The notes under the pieces: model-generated
What the model was told of the DNA's origin: nothing
The model's database searches: none
Seen by the model: the letters and a program-made list of their open reading frames with translations, nothing else
Source of the DNA: a bacterium HR29
GTDB taxonomy: Bacteria > Chloroflexota > Dehalococcoidia > Tepidiformales > Tepidiformaceae
Length of the DNA: 64,000 nt
Assembly: GCA_002898215.1 (NCBI GenBank)
Contig: BEIF01000001.1
Coordinates: 1,401,602-1,465,601 of the forward strand
Reading direction: 5' to 3'
Made by a program: the position numbers and the translations under genes
Shown: one piece after another, positions 35,191-61,413 of the stretch
Position numbering within the stretch: position 1 is the stretch's first letter
Layout: the number at the start of each line of letters is the position of its first letter

Positions 35191-36240
35191 CTACCGCGCC
35201 TGTAGGTAGCGGTCGAGCGTAGCGCCCACTTCCGGTCCGTTGGGGAAGAGGGTACCCAGCACCCGCTGCTCGAACCGCTGGAGCACGGCCTCGTAGATCT
35301 CGTCGGGAAGGGGCACGTAGCCGACCTCCGGCGTAGGGATGAGCTCCGTGAACTCCTTCGAAAGGTAGAACCGGATGAACGCCTGAACCTCGGGTCGTTC
35401 GGCCGCCTCCTTCCGGACGTAGATGAAGATGGGGCGGGAGAGCGGCTGGTAGGTGCCCTTCCGGATGCTCTCCTCCGAAGGCTCCACGCAGTTGCCGTCC
35501 CCGTTGTCGATGGCAACCGCCTTCACCTTGCCGGCGTTCTCGACGACGTAGGCGTAGCCGAGGTAGCCAAGGGCATTCCGATCGCCCGAGACGCCCGTGA
35601 TGGTGACGTTATCGTCTTCGGTCGCCTGGTAGTCGCCACGGCTGGCCTTCTCTTTCCCATTAATCGCCTGCGTGAAGTAGTCGAAGGTACCCGAATCGGT
35701 GCCGGCCCCGAACAGGACGAGCGGGCGGTCAGGGAAGCTGGGGCGGACCTGATTCCACCGCGTCACCTTCCCCTGGGATTCGGGGGACCAGATCGTCCTC
35801 AGCTCCTGAACCGTCAGGCACTGGGCCCAGTCGTTGTCGGGATGCACGATGACCGACAGACCGTCGTACGCGACCGGAAGCTCGATGAACTCGATGCCGT
35901 TCTTCGCGCACACCTCCCGCTCGGCCGGATCGATGGGGCGGGAGGCGTTCTGGATGTCGGTTTCGCCGGCGCAGAACTTCTTGAAGCCGCCGCCCGTACC
36001 AGAGATGCCGACGGAGATGCGGACGTTCGGCGCCTTGGCGCGGAACTCCTCCGCCGCCGCCGCCGTCACGGGGTACACGGTGGAGGAGCCGTCGGCGATG
36101 ATTTCGCCTGCCAGGTCTCGGAGGTTGTCGGTCGTAGGGGCTTCGTCGTCACCGCCACAAGCCGCGACGGCGACGAGCGCAACGGGGAGAAGGGCAGCAA
36201 GGACGAGGCGCAGCATGGAGCGGTTCCGGATGGGTATCAT
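35191..36240 (-). CDS. pstS: Phosphate-binding lipoprotein PstS
   Basis: A 349-residue phosphate-binding protein of the Pst importer, anchored outside the membrane. Lipobox LVAVAAC with Cys near residue 26 after a basic start ([12 protein letters not shown]). Binding motifs: [44 protein letters not shown] 36240 is used; an in-frame ATG at 36216 ([10 protein letters not shown]) also fits a signal peptide. The leader contains a large inverted repeat (36248-36311). First gene of pstSCAB-phoU; divergent from a PhoB/PhoR-type system. Confidence 0.94.
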
Positions 36241-36247
36241 AGCGAGT

Positions 36248-36311
36248 ACGTTCTCCCTACTTCTCGGGGTGGTGTGTGTGCCGGACACGGCCCCGAGGGT
36301 AGGGAGAACGT
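36248..36311. repeat. Large imperfect inverted repeat upstream of pstS
   Basis: ACGTTCTCCCTAC (36248-36260) pairs perfectly with GTAGGGAGAACGT (36299-36311). Inside, CTCGGGG (36263-36269) pairs with CCCCGAG (36291-36297), with only a TT/G bulge between, leaving a 21-nt loop. It can act as a long palindromic DNA site or as an RNA hairpin in the pstS leader. A GTTAAC lies just outside (36312-36317). Confidence 0.7.
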
Positions 36312-36462
36312 GTTAACAAGCGTCGATCTCCCCCGGCCGACGTGGATGGCGGGAGTTTTTACGCGCAATTTGCCCCTCGTCGGTGAAGTCGGGCCGGCCA
36401 GCGCCGAAACTGAAGGCGCAGCGGTCGGATGACGGCCCCGCCCGCCGATTCACCCCTCCAGA

Positions 36463-36519
36463 GCCGAGGGCTCCCCTCCCGCCATGAAGGACCCCGCTGG
36501 CGGGAGGGGAGCCCTCGGC
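36463..36519. repeat. Perfect 22-bp inverted repeat before the response-regulator gene
   Basis: The 22-nt arm at 36463-36484 is the exact reverse complement of 36498-36519, with a 13-nt loop (36485-36497). It ends 11 nt before the nearest possible start (36531), and no separate Shine-Dalgarno is visible after it; the only purine-rich stretch GGGAGGGGAG is inside the right arm. It could hide the ribosome site, attenuate transcription, or be a dimer operator. Confidence 0.75.
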
Positions 36520-36539
36520 GCATACTGCGAATGGCGCCT

Positions 36540-48908: not shown

Positions 48909-49047
48909 CGCTGCGCACTCCTCCCAGAGGCGGCGGCCCCGCGCTCCGGCTTCTCGCTGGTAAGTTCGGCCGGTGGATGGCGCGTAACAGGGTGGACCGC
49001 CACTGTTCCGCACCTTTCACCGTTGCTCCCCCGAACTGGCGCTCCGG

Positions 49048-49162
49048 GGCCGGAGGCGGCCGCCGTCCACTGCGGCCCGCCTCCGGCCGGCGGTCAGCGC
49101 CAGGACGGCGAAGCGGCAACCGTGGCGCAACCGAAGGCGGGCCGGTCGGTGACCGGCCCGCC
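49048..49162. terminator. Two strong hairpins between TasA-like gene 1 and the signal peptidase gene
   Basis: Hairpin 1: GGCCGGAGGCGG (49048-49059)/CCGCCTCCGGCC (49077-49088). Hairpin 2: GGCGGGCCGGTC (49136-49147)/GACCGGCCCGCC (49151-49162) with a 3-nt loop. Both are perfect 12-bp stems without U-tracts. They may lower expression of the peptidase relative to the upstream secreted protein. Confidence 0.6.
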
Positions 49163-49190
49163 TCTACGGTGGGTTGGCGGGAGCCGCGCG

Positions 49191-49553
49191 TCAGTCAGCC
49201 GCCACGACGCGGAGGCTCGTCACAGGCAGAACCGGGACATCCGGCGAAAAGTCGCACGACCAGTTGTTTCCGCCCGTGTTCGTGCAGCTGGTCCAGCTCG
49301 AGCCGTTATCAACCGAGGCGTAGACATCCCCGGCCGTAGCATCGAGCGTGAAGCTGACGCTGTCGATGTTGGCAGGGTTCGCCGCGGCGAGGTTGTAATT
49401 GATGTTCGAAACGGTGTAGCCGCTCACGGTACCGGAGCCGTCGCCGGCGCGAGAGCCTGGGACCGTGTTGCTGGCCGCGAAGCCGAAGGCCGCCACGGCC
49501 AGCGCTGCGATGATGGCGACTGCGAGCAGCCGCCGGGTGCGGGAACGGACCAT
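49191..49553 (-). CDS. SipW-type small secreted protein 1 (TasA/CalY-like)
   Basis: A 120-residue secreted protein. Basic start (MVRSRTRRL), hydrophobic core LAVAIIAALAVAAFGFAAS, then NTVPGSRAGDGSGTVSGYTV. The mature part is beta-rich: NINYNLAAANPANIDSVSFT, DATAGDVYASVDNGSSWTSC, one disulphide pair (TSCTNTGGNNWSCD) and end LRVVAAD. It belongs to the group of SipW-processed fibre or matrix proteins such as TasA/CalY by signal type, not by clear full-length homology. GGAGG precedes ATG 49553 by 7 nt. Confidence 0.78.
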   Translation of the reverse strand: MVRSRTRRLLAVAIIAALAVAAFGFAASNTVPGSRAGDGSGTVSGYTVSNINYNLAAANPANIDSVSFTLDATAGDVYASVDNGSSWTSCTNTGGNNWSCDFSPDVPVLPVTSLRVVAAD

Positions 49554-49843
49554 ACTCACTCCTCCGTGTGTCGTCCGGCGGGAGCCCTCCCCGCCGTGGG
49601 ATTCGCCGGGCCCCGTTCGGGGCTCCTATGCGAAAGCAACGACCGAGAAACACGCGAGGGAAGAGGTGCAGGTGATCGGTCACCGAGTTGTCACCCGACC
49701 AACGCCCCACAGCCCCCAAGTCCCGTGCGCGGCTGCCGTTTGGGTTCGGCCGACGGCCTCAGGGTTGACCCTCACGGCGGGGCTCTTCGTCCCCGACGAA
49801 CGCGGCGCGTCGGTGCCGCCCCGACCCTCCGGCGGGGCCGGCC
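49554..49843. other. 290-bp spacer between the two small secreted protein genes
   Basis: No gene is supported here. On the minus strand it is a long leader of secreted protein 1; it holds a short GC hairpin GCCCCGAACGGGGC. A riboswitch could not be recognised. Confidence 0.4.
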
Positions 49844-50194
49844 TCAATTGGTAGCCACGATGCGGAGCGAGTCGGCCAGTGCGACCGGAAAGCCGCCCAG
49901 CGGGCAGACCCATTCCCCACCCGATGGCGAACACGGAAACCACGAAAGCCCGCCATCGGGCGAGCAGGCGACGTCGCCCGCCGGCCCATCGAGTTGGAAG
50001 CGCACGGAAGCGAAGAGAGCGGGATTGCCCGGGACAGGCTCCCAGCGGACCTGAGAGACGGTGTACCCGGAGACCCCGGCGCTTCCGTCGCCCGCGCGTG
50101 ACTGGGGGACGACGTTGCAGGCCGCTGTTCCGCCGGAAACGGCCGCGACGACGGCAAGGATGAGCAGCGCCGGCGCCCCCACGGAGGCCCGCAT
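49844..50194 (-). CDS. SipW-type small secreted protein 2 (paralogue)
   Basis: A 116-residue paralogue of the previous protein. Signal core LLILAVVAAVSGGTAAC, then NVVPQSRAGDGSAGVSGYTV (20 residues; the same motif as SRAGDGSGTVSGYTV). Mature strands VSQVRWEPVPGNPALFASVR, LDGPAGDVACSPDGGLSWFP and CPLGGFPVALADSLRIVATN follow in the same order. A Cys just before the cleavage region could be lipidated, unlike protein 1. ATG 50194; first gene of the locus. Confidence 0.75.
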   Translation of the reverse strand: MRASVGAPALLILAVVAAVSGGTAACNVVPQSRAGDGSAGVSGYTVSQVRWEPVPGNPALFASVRFQLDGPAGDVACSPDGGLSWFPCSPSGGEWVCPLGGFPVALADSLRIVATN

Positions 50195-50286
50195 ACCGGT
50201 TCCGTCCTCACCTTTCTACACGACGGCCGACGGCTGGGGGAACAGGGGAGCTTGCGACGGCGTGTCGAAGCCGCCACGATCGAGGC

Positions 50287-57247: not shown

Positions 57248-58501
57248 ATGGACTTCGATATCCCAGAGGACATCCAACAGCTGTTGCGGGAGCTCGACGA
57301 GTTCATCGAGGCGGAGATCAAGCCTCTGGAACAGCAAGACGACAACATCCGCTTCTTCGACCACCGCCGGGAATGGGCGCGCACCGATTGGGAGAACGGG
57401 GGCGTGCCACGGAAGGAGTGGGAGGAGCTCCTCGCCGAGATGCGCCGCCGAGCCGACCGGGCCGGGTTCTACCGGTACTCGTTGCCGAAGGAGTACGGCG
57501 GACGTGATGGGACCAACCTGGGGATGGCCATCATTCGGGAACACCTTGCCCGGAAGGGGCTCGGCCTCCACAACGACCTGCAGAACGAGTCATCGGTGGT
57601 GGGAAATTTCCCAACGTTCTGGATGTTCTACCACTACGGCACCGAGCAGCAGAAGCGGGAGTTTCTGGAGGACATCATCACGGGGAAGAAGCGGGTGGCG
57701 TTCGGACTCACGGAGCCGAACCACGGGTCCGACGCCACCTGGCTGGAGACGCGCGCCGTACGCGACGGGGACGAGTGGGTCATCAACGGCACGAAGCGCT
57801 TCAACAGCGGCATGCATAACGCGACGCACGACCTCGTCTTCGCGCGGACCAGCGGCGACGAAGGGAAGGCACAGGGTATCACCTGCTTCATCGTCCCCAC
57901 CGACGCTCCGGGCGTGAAGGTCGAGTTCCACTGGTGGACCTTCAACATGCCGACGGACCACGCCGAGGTCACCTTCACCGACGTCCGCGTCCCGAACGAC
58001 GCGATCCTGGGGCGAGAGGGGGAAGGCCTGGCCCTGGCCAACGTCTTCGTGCACGAGAACCGCATCCGGCAGGCGGCGTCGAGCCTGGGGGCGGCCCAGT
58101 ACTGCATCGACCAATCGGTTGAGTACGCCAAGAAGCGGGTGACGTTCGGCGAGCCGCTGGCGAGGCGCCAGGCGATCCAATGGCCGCTGGTCGAGCTCCA
58201 GACGGAGGCGGAGATGCTCCGACAGCTCATCCGACGGACAGCCTGGGAGCTCGACCGGAAGCATCACCTGGAGGTGAGCCACCTGGTGGCGATGTGCAAC
58301 TACCGCGCGAACCGGCTCGCCTGCGAGGCGGCCGACCGCGCCATCCAAGTGCACGGGGGGATCGGCTACACGCGGCACCTGCCGTTCGAGCACATCTACC
58401 GTCACCATCGGCGGTACCGGATTACCGAGGGCTCGGAGGAGATCCAGATGCGGCGCATCGCCCAAGTGATGTTCGGGTTCGGGCGGCCGCGGGAGCGGTG
58501 A
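57248..58501 (+). CDS. Acyl-CoA dehydrogenase, LvaC/ACAD11-like
   Basis: A 417-residue FAD enzyme: N-terminal FIEAEIKPLEQQ; YSLPKEYGGRDGTNLGM; FGLTEPNHGSDATWLETRA; INGTKRFNSGMHNATHDLV; VHGGIGYTRHLPFEHIYRHH; RYRITEGSEEIQMRRIAQVM (catalytic Glu in TEGSEEI). In the lva pathway LvaC removes the 4-phosphate and rearranges the acyl-CoA toward 3-hydroxyacyl-CoA. ATG 57248 after AAAGGAG. Followed by a terminator. Confidence 0.88.
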   Translation: MDFDIPEDIQQLLRELDEFIEAEIKPLEQQDDNIRFFDHRREWARTDWENGGVPRKEWEELLAEMRRRADRAGFYRYSLPKEYGGRDGTNLGMAIIREHLARKGLGLHNDLQNESSVVGNFPTFWMFYHYGTEQQKREFLEDIITGKKRVAFGLTEPNHGSDATWLETRAVRDGDEWVINGTKRFNSGMHNATHDLVFARTSGDEGKAQGITCFIVPTDAPGVKVEFHWWTFNMPTDHAEVTFTDVRVPNDAILGREGEGLALANVFVHENRIRQAASSLGAAQYCIDQSVEYAKKRVTFGEPLARRQAIQWPLVELQTEAEMLRQLIRRTAWELDRKHHLEVSHLVAMCNYRANRLACEAADRAIQVHGGIGYTRHLPFEHIYRHHRRYRITEGSEEIQMRRIAQVMFGFGRPRER

Positions 58502-58505
58502 CGGC

Positions 58506-58530
58506 GGGGGGCGGTGGCGGACCGCCCCCC
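58506..58530. terminator. Bidirectional hairpin between convergent genes
   Basis: GGGGGGCGG (58506-58514)/CCGCCCCCC (58522-58530), 7-nt loop, then TCATTCC. Ends the kinase-DUF6285-dehydrogenase transcript and may serve the DUF4352 gene from the other side. Confidence 0.6.
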
Positions 58531-58553
58531 TCATTCCGCCGGTGGGGTCAGGA

Positions 58554-59207
58554 CTACCGGAGCGAGAACCAGCCAATCACAGGCGAAACGAGGCCGTCTT
58601 TCACGCGCAGCGCGAGGCTCTCGACCTCGTCTGTCGGAACGGACCAGCACAAGTTCCCTGTGATCTCCCCACCTTTCATGAGCTCCTTCCAGGTATCCAG
58701 CTCGGAAGGAATAACTCCGCACCACTCCTCGTACGTCGTATATTCGACTCGCCGGTCGCCGAAGAGCGAGAACGAGAGATCGAACGCCGGTATCGCCGTC
58801 TCATCTTCGCCCTCATACTGCAGCGTTAGCCTGACGATGAGGTACTGACGACCGGGTGGCGGCGGCGTGTTGAACATGTTTTCGGCCAGCACCATCTGCG
58901 TGGCGTCGGGGATCACGTCCTCCACTCTGACGATCCAATCGCGCAGCCGCACCGCCGCCCCGCGCGGAGCCGGATTCTCGCGGCTCGACCCCAAGCTCCC
59001 GCTCGCTGGCGGCGTCGTCGGACTCGCGCTGCTGGTCTCATCGGTTCGCGTTGCTACGCTCGCGCCCGTATCGACAGCAGTGGGCATGGACACGATCTCT
59101 GGTTCGTCGTCGCCGAGCGAGGCGATGGCGGCCGCCACCACGACCACCAAGAGGATGGCCGCCGCGACGCCGAAGCAACCGAAGAAGCCACCCTTGAACG
59201 CTTTCAC
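58554..59207 (-). CDS. Membrane-anchored DUF4352-like protein
   Basis: A 217-residue protein. The N-terminal helix (GVAAAILLVVVVAAAIASLG) is a signal anchor; a Ser/Thr/Pro linker follows (SVATRTDETSSASPTTPPAS). The globular part has VRLRDWIVRVEDVIPDATQM, GRQYLIVRLTLQYEGEDETA and VEYTTYEEWCGVIPSELDTW, ITGNLCWSVPTDEVESLALR, consistent with a DUF4352 immunoglobulin-like domain; cysteines in WCGV and NLCW may form a disulphide. GTG 59207 with AAGGAG. Function unknown; probably envelope. Confidence 0.78.
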   Translation of the reverse strand: MKAFKGGFFGCFGVAAAILLVVVVAAAIASLGDDEPEIVSMPTAVDTGASVATRTDETSSASPTTPPASGSLGSSRENPAPRGAAVRLRDWIVRVEDVIPDATQMVLAENMFNTPPPPGRQYLIVRLTLQYEGEDETAIPAFDLSFSLFGDRRVEYTTYEEWCGVIPSELDTWKELMKGGEITGNLCWSVPTDEVESLALRVKDGLVSPVIGWFSLR

Positions 59208-59349
59208 GCCCTCATCTCCTTCCTTGCGTGACCTCGCCGGCCAGGAGCCGACGCTGATGCCATCCTCGACCCGCGTCGCGTCATCCACGGTCGCGACGAG
59301 GCCCGATGCGACGACGAAGCCGACTGTTTTCGATACCTGCTCGAAATGG

Positions 59350-59442
59350 CGAACCCCCGGAGCACACGCTCCGGGGGCAGCCGGAAGGAGGGTGGAGTGC
59401 CTGACGGCCAGTTGCCGGAGCAGCTTCGCGCGCCGACAACTG
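59350..59442 (-). ncRNA. Candidate small RNA or structured leader
   Basis: Starts about 8 nt after the minus-strand promoter. 5' hairpin AGTTGTCGG (59441-59433)/CCGGCAACT (59418-59410) has 9 pairs (one G-U). A C/U-rich single-stranded stretch CACCCTCCTTCCGG contains CCTCC, complementary to Shine-Dalgarno. It ends in GCTCCGGGGG (59368-59377) paired with CCCCCGGAGC (59354-59363) over a 4-nt loop. The following TTCGCCATTTCG is only a weak U-tract, so it may read into the DUF4352 gene instead. Confidence 0.45.
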
Positions 59443-59448
59443 AGACTA

Positions 59449-59477
59449 AGTATCAACACTGCCAGGGCGGGTGTCAA
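59449..59477 (-). promoter_or_regulatory. Strong sigma70 promoter, minus strand
   Basis: Consensus -35 TTGACA (59477-59472), 17-bp spacer, GATACT (59454-59449). Best -35 in the window. Confidence 0.7.
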
Positions 59478-59846
59478 CGGCAGGCGTCGAAGGACCCCGC
59501 GGCAGGCCGGTCGGTGCCCCTCAGGGGCCCTCGAAGCACTGACGGACGCCTCGGCGATTCCGCCCGGATACCGCCATCGCGTGAGCACCCGCTCTCCGCA
59601 ACGCCGAGGAGAGGACCGACTGCACAGGGGCGGCCATGGGCGACGGCCGGGCGCGCAGCGAGGGGTGCGTGGCCACGGAAGTTCGAGGTCCTCCACCACC
59701 TTGAACCGGGCTTGCGGGTCTGCGGCGGCGTGGTGCCGCGCCCGCCACGACCGCGGTGGCGCGGGCGGGTTACCACCACCGAGCGAGCGCGCCCCCACCC
59801 GTGAGGCCCTTAGGGCTTCCGCTGGCCGAGGCGGGACGTGGAGGCG
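59478..59846. other. Intergenic stretch without a supported gene
   Basis: Open frames exist on both strands but have poor composition for genes (Arg/Pro/Ser-rich shadows, no start signals). A short hairpin GGCCCTTAGGGC is near 59803-59819. No RNase P, SRP RNA or tmRNA signature was found. Confidence 0.45.
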
Positions 59847-59852
59847 TACGCT
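59847..59852 (+). promoter_or_regulatory. -10 box for tRNA-Lys
   Basis: TACGCT six nt upstream of the mature tRNA 5' end (59859), implying a very short or absent 5' leader. Confidence 0.4.
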
Positions 59853-59858
59853 GGTGGC

Positions 59859-59930
59859 GGGCCCGTAGCTCAGCGGTAGAGCAGTGGACTTTTAATCCAT
59901 TGGTCGTGGGTTCGAATCCCACCGGGCCCA
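59859..59930 (+). tRNA. tRNA-Lys (TTT)
   Basis: Acceptor GGGCCCG/CGGGCCC with A73; D arm GCTC/GAGC; anticodon stem GTGGA/TCCAT with loop CTTTTAA (anticodon TTT); T arm GTGGG TTCGAAT CCCAC. CCA is not encoded. Confidence 0.97.
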
Positions 59931-59964
59931 ACGCACGGCGCGACGGGCCTCACGATTCCCGTGG

Positions 59965-59970
59965 TAAGCT
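59965..59970 (+). promoter_or_regulatory. -10 box for leaderless PAC2-family gene
   Basis: TAAGCT six nt before GTG 59977. Confidence 0.4.
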
Positions 59971-59976
59971 CGGGCC

Positions 59977-60849
59977 GTGGCCGACGCTCTCAGGCTCGAT
60001 TCGCTGCCCGAACTGCGTAGCCCGGTGGCCGTCGTCGCCTTCGCCGGCTGGAACGACGCGGCCAGCGCGGCCACCAACGCCGCCCGCTTCCTTGCCCGCC
60101 GGCTCGGTGCCCGCCGCTTCGCCTCCATCGACCCCGAGCCGTTCACCGACTTCCGTTCGACCCGACCGACCGTCCGCCTCAACGCCTTCGGCGAACGGGA
60201 GATCGTCTGGCCGCAGACCGACTTCCTCTATGCTCGCAACCCCACCGGGCCTCACGACGTCGTGGTCGGTATCGGCGTGGAGCCGGACCTCCGCTGGCGA
60301 ACCTACAGCGGGATCGTCGTCGAACTCCTGAGGCGTCTCGGGGTCACCCTCTTCGTTTCGCTCGGAGCGCTGCTGGCCGACGTCCCTCACACGAGGCCGG
60401 TGAGGGTGACGGGCACGGCCCCCGACCCCGAAACGGCAGCACGCCTCGGTCTCACCGTCTCGCGCTACGAGGGCCCCACGGGCATCGTCGGGGTCCTGAC
60501 CGACGCGGTGCGGCGGGCTGGTATTCCGGCCATGAGCCTCTGGGCGAACGTCCCGCACTACATCACCACGGCCCAAAACCCGCCTGCGACCGTGGCGCTC
60601 CTCCAGCGGCTGCAGGAGCCACTCGGCCTCACCTTCGACCTCACGGAGCTGGAGAAGGCCGGCGATCGGTTCGTGCGCGACGTGAACGCGGCCATCGCCG
60701 CGAACCCCGAGATCCAGGCCTACGTGCGACAGTTGGAGGCGGATGCGGACCAGGCCGCGACCGAGGAGCCGTCGCTGCCGCCGGCGAAGGAACTCCTCCT
60801 CGACATCGAGGAGTTCCTCCGCCGGCAGCGGGGCGAGCGCGACGGCTGA
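59977..60849 (+). CDS. PAC2-family (proteasome assembly chaperone-like) protein
   Basis: A 290-residue PF09754 protein: PVAVVAFAGWNDAASAATNA, DFRSTRPTVRLNAFGEREIV, VVVGIGVEPDLRWRTYSGIV, DVPHTRPVRVTG, ANVPHYITTAQNPPATVALL. The C-terminal ~50 residues carry an acidic helix and a basic end (LRRQRGERDG). Actinobacterial PAC2 proteins occur with proteasome genes, but a role in bacteria is not settled. GTG 59977 with leaderless-type promoter. Confidence 0.85.
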   Translation: MADALRLDSLPELRSPVAVVAFAGWNDAASAATNAARFLARRLGARRFASIDPEPFTDFRSTRPTVRLNAFGEREIVWPQTDFLYARNPTGPHDVVVGIGVEPDLRWRTYSGIVVELLRRLGVTLFVSLGALLADVPHTRPVRVTGTAPDPETAARLGLTVSRYEGPTGIVGVLTDAVRRAGIPAMSLWANVPHYITTAQNPPATVALLQRLQEPLGLTFDLTELEKAGDRFVRDVNAAIAANPEIQAYVRQLEADADQAATEEPSLPPAKELLLDIEEFLRRQRGERDG

Positions 60850-60891
60850 CCGCGCGGCGAGCGACAGCGCAGCGGCGGAGCGCCGCACGCG

Positions 60892-61413
60892 CTAGATGCC
60901 GAACTTCATCCCTAGCGCGCCCTTGATGAGGTTGATCTCCCCCAGGTGCATGAAACCGTGCGTCATCACCACCTGGCGGAGCACCTTCCCCCGGCTCATC
61001 TCACCCAACGGGCGGATGAGCTGTACCTCGTCGAGTTCCTCGAGCGGAACGTTCTTGATGTATTCGATCGCGGCGGCGCCGACCTCCCGGCCGTACTCGC
61101 AGAGGAGGCCCGGGTCGGTGATGGTGAGCGCGCGGGCGTCCTCGATGCTCATCCCAGTCCCCTGCTCTACCTTCGGAAGGCCCAGCCGGTCGCAGTACCC
61201 CTTCTCGAGCCAGATGGTTGGCTTTCGGTTCTGCAGGACGAAGTTGACGATGTTGTCCGTCGTGCGCCAGACATGCCACGCCGAGAATCCGATGCTGGTG
61301 GTGTTCCCCGGTGGGAGCCAGTTCACCTGCTCCGGGGTCAATCCCTCCAGGGCCTGCAGCATCCAATCGTTGAGCTGCTGCACGCCGTCGACGAGCATCT
61401 CGCGAACGTCCAC
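60892..61413 (-). CDS. DinB-family protein
   Basis: A 173-residue four-helix-bundle DinB/YfiT-like protein. Metal ligands would be His in FSAWHVWRTTDNIVNF and the pair in MTHGFMHLGEINLIKG. The role is unknown; relatives are thiol transferases or damage-induced proteins. GTG 61413 after GAGGAGGG. A tail of GALGMKFGI. Confidence 0.85.
   Translation of the reverse strand: MDVREMLVDGVQQLNDWMLQALEGLTPEQVNWLPPGNTTSIGFSAWHVWRTTDNIVNFVLQNRKPTIWLEKGYCDRLGLPKVEQGTGMSIEDARALTITDPGLLCEYGREVGAAAIEYIKNVPLEELDEVQLIRPLGEMSRGKVLRQVVMTHGFMHLGEINLIKGALGMKFGI

Follow-up and report, generated by a model that had tools for sequence, protein, structure and literature searches.

A promoter and two hairpins upstream of a DUF4352 gene in bacterium HR29 are best read as the start of a long 5′ leader

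Upstream of a DUF4352 gene in the genome of bacterium HR29, a consensus-like promoter is followed by two hairpins flanking a C/U-rich stretch that could pair with Shine-Dalgarno (SD) sequences. The question raised by this locus is whether the promoter drives a separate small RNA that blocks ribosome-binding sites in trans, or whether it starts the mRNA of the gene itself. An earlier reading of the sequence alone (the sequence-only reading) had described a candidate small RNA and named a DUF4352 leader as the alternative. Both were followed through the window, which is the whole 64,000-nucleotide stretch of DNA that was analysed, through the rest of the genome and through related genomes. The coordinates of the features are collected in Table 1.

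Table 1. Features predicted at the DUF4352 locus, in window coordinates.
Feature	Position	Strand	Basis
Sigma-70-type promoter, TTGACA-N17-GATACT	59449-59477	minus	Motif scan, window and genome counts
Inferred transcription start, 6-7 nt past the -10 hexamer	59442-59443	minus	Inference from promoter position
Hairpin 1, outer stem of 10 pairs, one of them G-U	59409-59442	minus	Folding
C/U-rich stretch CTCCACCCTCCTTCC, including CTCCTTCC (59390-59383), which complements the DUF4352 SD perfectly	59383-59397	minus	Folding
Hairpin 2, 10 Watson-Crick pairs and a closing G-U pair, GUGU loop, not followed by a U-tract	59353-59378	minus	Folding
Predicted 5′ leader of the DUF4352 mRNA, about 236 nt	59208-59443	minus	Promoter position, gene arrangement, folding
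SD of DUF4352, GGAAGGAG, strong	59216-59223	minus	Sequence, gene calling
DUF4352 (PF11611) gene, 217 aa, GTG start	58554-59207	minus	Open reading frame, profile match (E 4.3e-7), codon model

The TTGACA-N17-GATACT promoter of the sequence-only reading is present and lies on the minus strand, which that reading had not named, with the -35 hexamer at 59477-59472, a spacer of 17 nt and the -10 hexamer at 59454-59449. Nowhere else in the 64-kb window does a site match the consensus at 10 or more of 12 positions; in 15 runs of random sequence matched for dinucleotide composition, the mean was 0.33 such sites. A genome-wide count gave two sites for the stricter motif TTGACA-16/18-NATACT and none for its reversed form; for the relaxed motif TTGACA-16/18-NANNNT it gave 30, and 8 for the reversed-motif control. 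The genome is about 90% coding (coding density 0.75-0.96 across sampled stretches), and 28 of the 30 relaxed-motif sites lie in mostly noncoding DNA (at most 23% coding). A same-strand gene is called next at 29 of the 30; at the other (locus L053), a short same-strand open reading frame with an SD comes next, a short gene known to have been missed by our calls, which were made with a custom codon-usage script and no standard gene finder. As the TTGACA-type motif marks gene starts in this genome, a leader is the default reading of the DNA that follows it. Judged from sequence, it is credible that the site at 59477-59449 is a real housekeeping sigma-70-type promoter, and by the same sequence-level measure the locus has the promoter of its own that is looked for in a trans-acting, SD-blocking small RNA.

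DUF4352 is a single gene with no same-strand neighbor upstream. A tRNA-Lys gene (59859-59930, plus strand) and a PAC2 gene (59977-60849, plus strand) diverge from it on the upstream side, and on its other flank lies a convergent acyl-CoA dehydrogenase gene, so that DUF4352 needs a promoter of its own. No other sigma-70-like site with at least 9 of 12 matches was found on either strand in 58000-61000, and the reported structure sits between the promoter and this same-strand gene. As DUF4352 is the first gene downstream, the neighbors are divergent and the start codon lies about 236 nt past the predicted start of transcription, the region is best read as a 5′ leader, and we consider it probable that the promoter and hairpins together form the leader of the DUF4352 mRNA. 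What the sequence-only reading had offered as an alternative is, with these neighbors, a strong SD ahead of a GTG codon and no competing promoter, the best supported account of the locus. A leader of this length is long for the 30-promoter set, in which most leaders are shorter than 110 nt. An extended DUF4352 reading frame running through the leader was also considered and rejected; the frame is open to 59798, but the codon model together with an SD bonus sets the start at 59207. The translated protein has, by eye, a hydrophobic segment near its N-terminus and is probably membrane-anchored. Taken as a model, the housekeeping sigma-70-type promoter on the minus strand would start the DUF4352 mRNA, and the reported hairpins would form the first part of a predicted transcript that reads through hairpin 2 into the rest of the leader.

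Folding placed a hairpin at the predicted start, as had been claimed, with 10 outer pairs in place of the nine given earlier. The second 10-bp hairpin was recovered with Watson-Crick arms at 59377-59368 and 59363-59354 and a closing G-U pair in addition. The CCTCC said to lie in a C/U-rich single-stranded region is found at 59391-59387, inside the stretch 59397-59383; in a fold of the first 94 nt, this stretch is mainly, not entirely, unpaired.

When the full leader is folded (237 nt), CUCCUUCC (59390-59383) pairs with the DUF4352 SD at probabilities of 0.98-1.0 with both hairpins retained, and this pairing is unchanged when 60 nt of coding sequence are added to the fold. With the leader intact, the SD has a mean unpaired probability of 0.003, and this value changes non-monotonically as the 5′ end is cut back, to 0.026 after removal of 30 nt, 0.61 after 64 nt, 0.27 after 70 nt and 0.63-0.65 after 95 and 120 nt. 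Among shuffled leaders, 3 of 300 reached an SD unpaired probability of 0.01 or below. A complement to the SD of at least 8 nt arises by chance in 151 of 3000 random leaders (about 5%), and a longer one exists at another gene among the 66 genes of the window. Ranked by occlusion of the core SD, DUF4352 is 10th of 170 genes, and it is 3rd of the 23 genes with mostly noncoding upstream DNA, five of which have values of 0.01 or below. Under other SD windows, it ranks 13th of 66 (fixed window) and 65th of 219 (automatic 8-mer choice). In-silico occlusion of the SD is common in this GC-rich genome and by itself cannot establish regulation. The pairing of the linker with its own SD in the folded leader suggests action in cis rather than in trans, makes the gene's own mRNA the most parsimonious partner for the anti-SD stretch, and gives what looks like a trans-acting anti-SD motif a simpler cis explanation.

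If the leader folds as modelled, hairpins 1 and 2 would persist while the C/U-rich linker pairs with the SD 160 nt downstream, which would close the ribosome-binding site and keep translation of DUF4352 low unless the leader were opened. That this pairing is used for control is a tentative proposal, and a somewhat doubtful one. Its more specific form, an undescribed cis RNA switch (responding to a ligand, a protein or temperature) in which the anti-SD stretch between the hairpins locks the ribosome-binding site of a membrane-protein gene, appears quite improbable. Were the leader to regulate, it would provide a first handle on how a DUF4352 protein is controlled in this lineage. No report of the regulation of a DUF4352 leader was found in the literature at the level of titles and abstract openings, which is no proof of absence.

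Long leaders of known function occur in the same genome. Rfam scans of 12 of the 30 promoter loci, together with a scan of the DUF4352 leader within the window, identified an FMN riboswitch (RF00050) in a 199-nt leader (L060, at 1538-1667) and a c-di-AMP riboswitch (RF00379) with a U6 terminator in a 252-nt leader (L061, at 1574-1706). These loci lie about 9 kb before and about 8 kb after the window, both behind TTGACA promoters. No Rfam family was found in the leaders of L063 (363 nt) and L043 (477 nt), at about 1530-2030, where TTGACA promoters are present too. The DUF4352 leader resembles the two riboswitch leaders in being long, structured and behind the same type of promoter; unlike them, it has no Rfam aptamer that would suggest a ligand, and its hairpin 2 is followed by no U-tract, in contrast to the clear terminator of the c-di-AMP leader. 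The 30-site promoter survey, in which two sites lead into known riboswitches, can serve as a list of likely leaders.

In order to place the leader among related genomes, DNA, covariance-model and protein searches were combined. The leader has no second copy in its own genome. Among 61 relatives (own genome included), its DNA matched only the own genome and one other (G006), and the latter match was set aside since it lies inside a reading frame that we take to be M20-type peptidase or amidohydrolase-like. Among 393 genomes of the class (own included), six matched, the other five only over short stretches of 24-47 nt; of the four beyond G006, three fall in called coding sequence and were discarded, and the fourth (L136) lies at 923-963, outside the sole called gene of that locus. 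A blastn search of the leader region against 66 loci (own four excluded) gave a best E of 0.22 besides the G006 match. A covariance model covering both hairpins, for which a single sequence was supplied twice, matched 11 of 38 family genomes at E of at most 1 (own included), with a best other E of 0.029 and weaker matches in G006 (E 0.58) and G027 (E 0.94). Eight of these matches were checked at their loci and rejected, six being in called genes and two (L125 and L126) in uncalled DNA; a 9-of-12 promoter was found just upstream of none of the eight. In all, no credible homologue of the leader was found by DNA (393 genomes) or by covariance model (38 genomes), own counted in both, and as the 38 family genomes include no other genome of the same genus, these leader comparisons reach beyond the genus only. 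At a relaxed Rfam threshold, the leader gave only sub-threshold matches on the opposite strand (E 0.93 and 9.4).

The DUF4352 protein has relatives in 6 of the 38 family genomes (own included) at a best identity of 35%, the two best matches, both in G005, having a gene context that differs from the own locus; no relatives were found in GTDB r220. The PAC2 neighbor is present in 37 of the 38, and among the named relatives of its protein are MAGs that carry the labels Dehalococcoidia (58%) and Anaerolinea (61%), which points to the Chloroflexota. Among 30 loci (own counted), tRNA-Lys lies directly upstream of PAC2 in the own locus only, and one other has tRNA-Lys downstream.

The structure of the leader has to be weighed against chance. 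The same transcript could carry a long leader whose folding arises without any regulatory role, as expected of noncoding DNA at about 71% GC, and we regard this as a serious possibility that falls short of being probable. It is favored by the 88 of 3352 noncoding 94-nt segments of the genome (overlapping, both strands) that fold as stably or better, by the frequency of SD occlusion in this genome and by the lack of a homologue in the searches above. Against this, the 94-nt fold (-53.3 kcal/mol) has a z of -4.5 relative to the leader's own shuffles, none of 200 shuffles being equally stable, and over the first 110 nt the DUF4352 leader is the most stable (-59.9) of the 30 promoters compared. 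Hairpins of at least 8 bp are uncommon in 5′ noncoding zones, with seven in 14,710 bases of such zones in a 304-kb sample, the leader's own counted.

Two further accounts assign hairpin 2 a role in ending transcription. One is a separate small RNA, about 90 nt long, that would stop there and use its C/U-rich stretch to block ribosome-binding sites on other mRNAs, and the promoter and the two hairpins with their C/U-rich linker have the shape of such an RNA. Hairpin 2 also resembles the GC hairpins found directly past stop codons in this genome, several of which have no U-tract. In the 304-kb sample, GC-rich perfect hairpins number 12 in 7322 bases of 3′ zone past stop codons (1.64/kb) and 78 in 274,596 bases of coding DNA (0.28/kb); as hairpins are enriched past stops and the U-tails of gene-end hairpins are weak in several cases, hairpin 2 could in principle act as a transcript end. 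However, its tail, TTCGCCATTTCG, is no U-tract, in a genome that has a U6 terminator in its c-di-AMP leader, and a terminator scan of 58000-61000 found none. The element is single-copy and has no Rfam match at the gathering cut-off, and in folds of the full leader, with and without 60 nt of coding sequence, its linker pairs strongly with its own mRNA; no other SD pairing of high probability came out of these folds. A separate trans-acting small RNA is unlikely on this evidence; the resemblance noted in the sequence-only reading holds for the shape and is not borne out by a U-tract, a further copy or an Rfam family. In an attenuator, hairpin 2 would be the terminator and GCUCCGG of hairpin 1 would pair with CCGGAGC of hairpin 2 as the antiterminator. 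The 7-nt direct repeat GCUCCGG, present in hairpin 1 and again in the 3′ arm of hairpin 2, has an attenuator-like layout, but the antiterminator fold (-35.8) lies 17.5 kcal/mol above the two-hairpin fold (-53.3), by which pairing through this repeat was ruled out. In addition, every partial transcript folded, from 36 to 96 nt, has hairpin 1 in its minimum-energy structure, and the U-tract is again missing, which makes attenuation highly improbable.

The shape that prompted the small RNA reading has a known counterpart in the CU-rich sRNAs of the LhrC type, which include Listeria LhrC, S. aureus RsaE and others; as published, LhrC is multicopy and has three CU-rich motifs and a terminator structure (PMC4132741). 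The DUF4352 leader shares with the type, as described there, two hairpins flanking a C/U-rich single-stranded stretch able to pair with SDs, and differs from LhrC in having one copy, one main motif and no U-tract, and in that the best pairing found for it is in cis, with its own mRNA (PMC4132741).

Other hairpins and stable folds were noted elsewhere in the genome. Among the noncoding 94-nt folds of the sample, the most stable (-73.6) lies at window positions 49021-49163, where a 13-bp hairpin (49135-49163) stands directly past the end of the gene 49191-49553. The 733-nt gap at 49554-50286 is the longest in the window without a called gene. At locus L044, an 11-bp palindromic hairpin, GACTTAGTGTATCGAGTACACTAAGTC, begins about 2 nt past the predicted transcript start and could be an operator.

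Finally, the strongest SD occlusion among the 170 genes belongs to a phosphate-binding-protein-type gene (PF12849) at 35191-36240, which we take to be PstS-like and which adjoins a divergent response-regulator gene. Its SD lies within a hairpin in the upstream region 36248-36311 (minus strand); the hairpin has a perfect arm of 13 bp, ACGTTCTCCCTAC, which spans 36311-36299. This hairpin is a better candidate for SD control, or for an operator dyad, than the DUF4352 leader. Between the PstS-like and response-regulator genes, at about 36420-36530, there is also a very stable long inverted repeat, in which 94-nt segments reach -63.6 kcal/mol.
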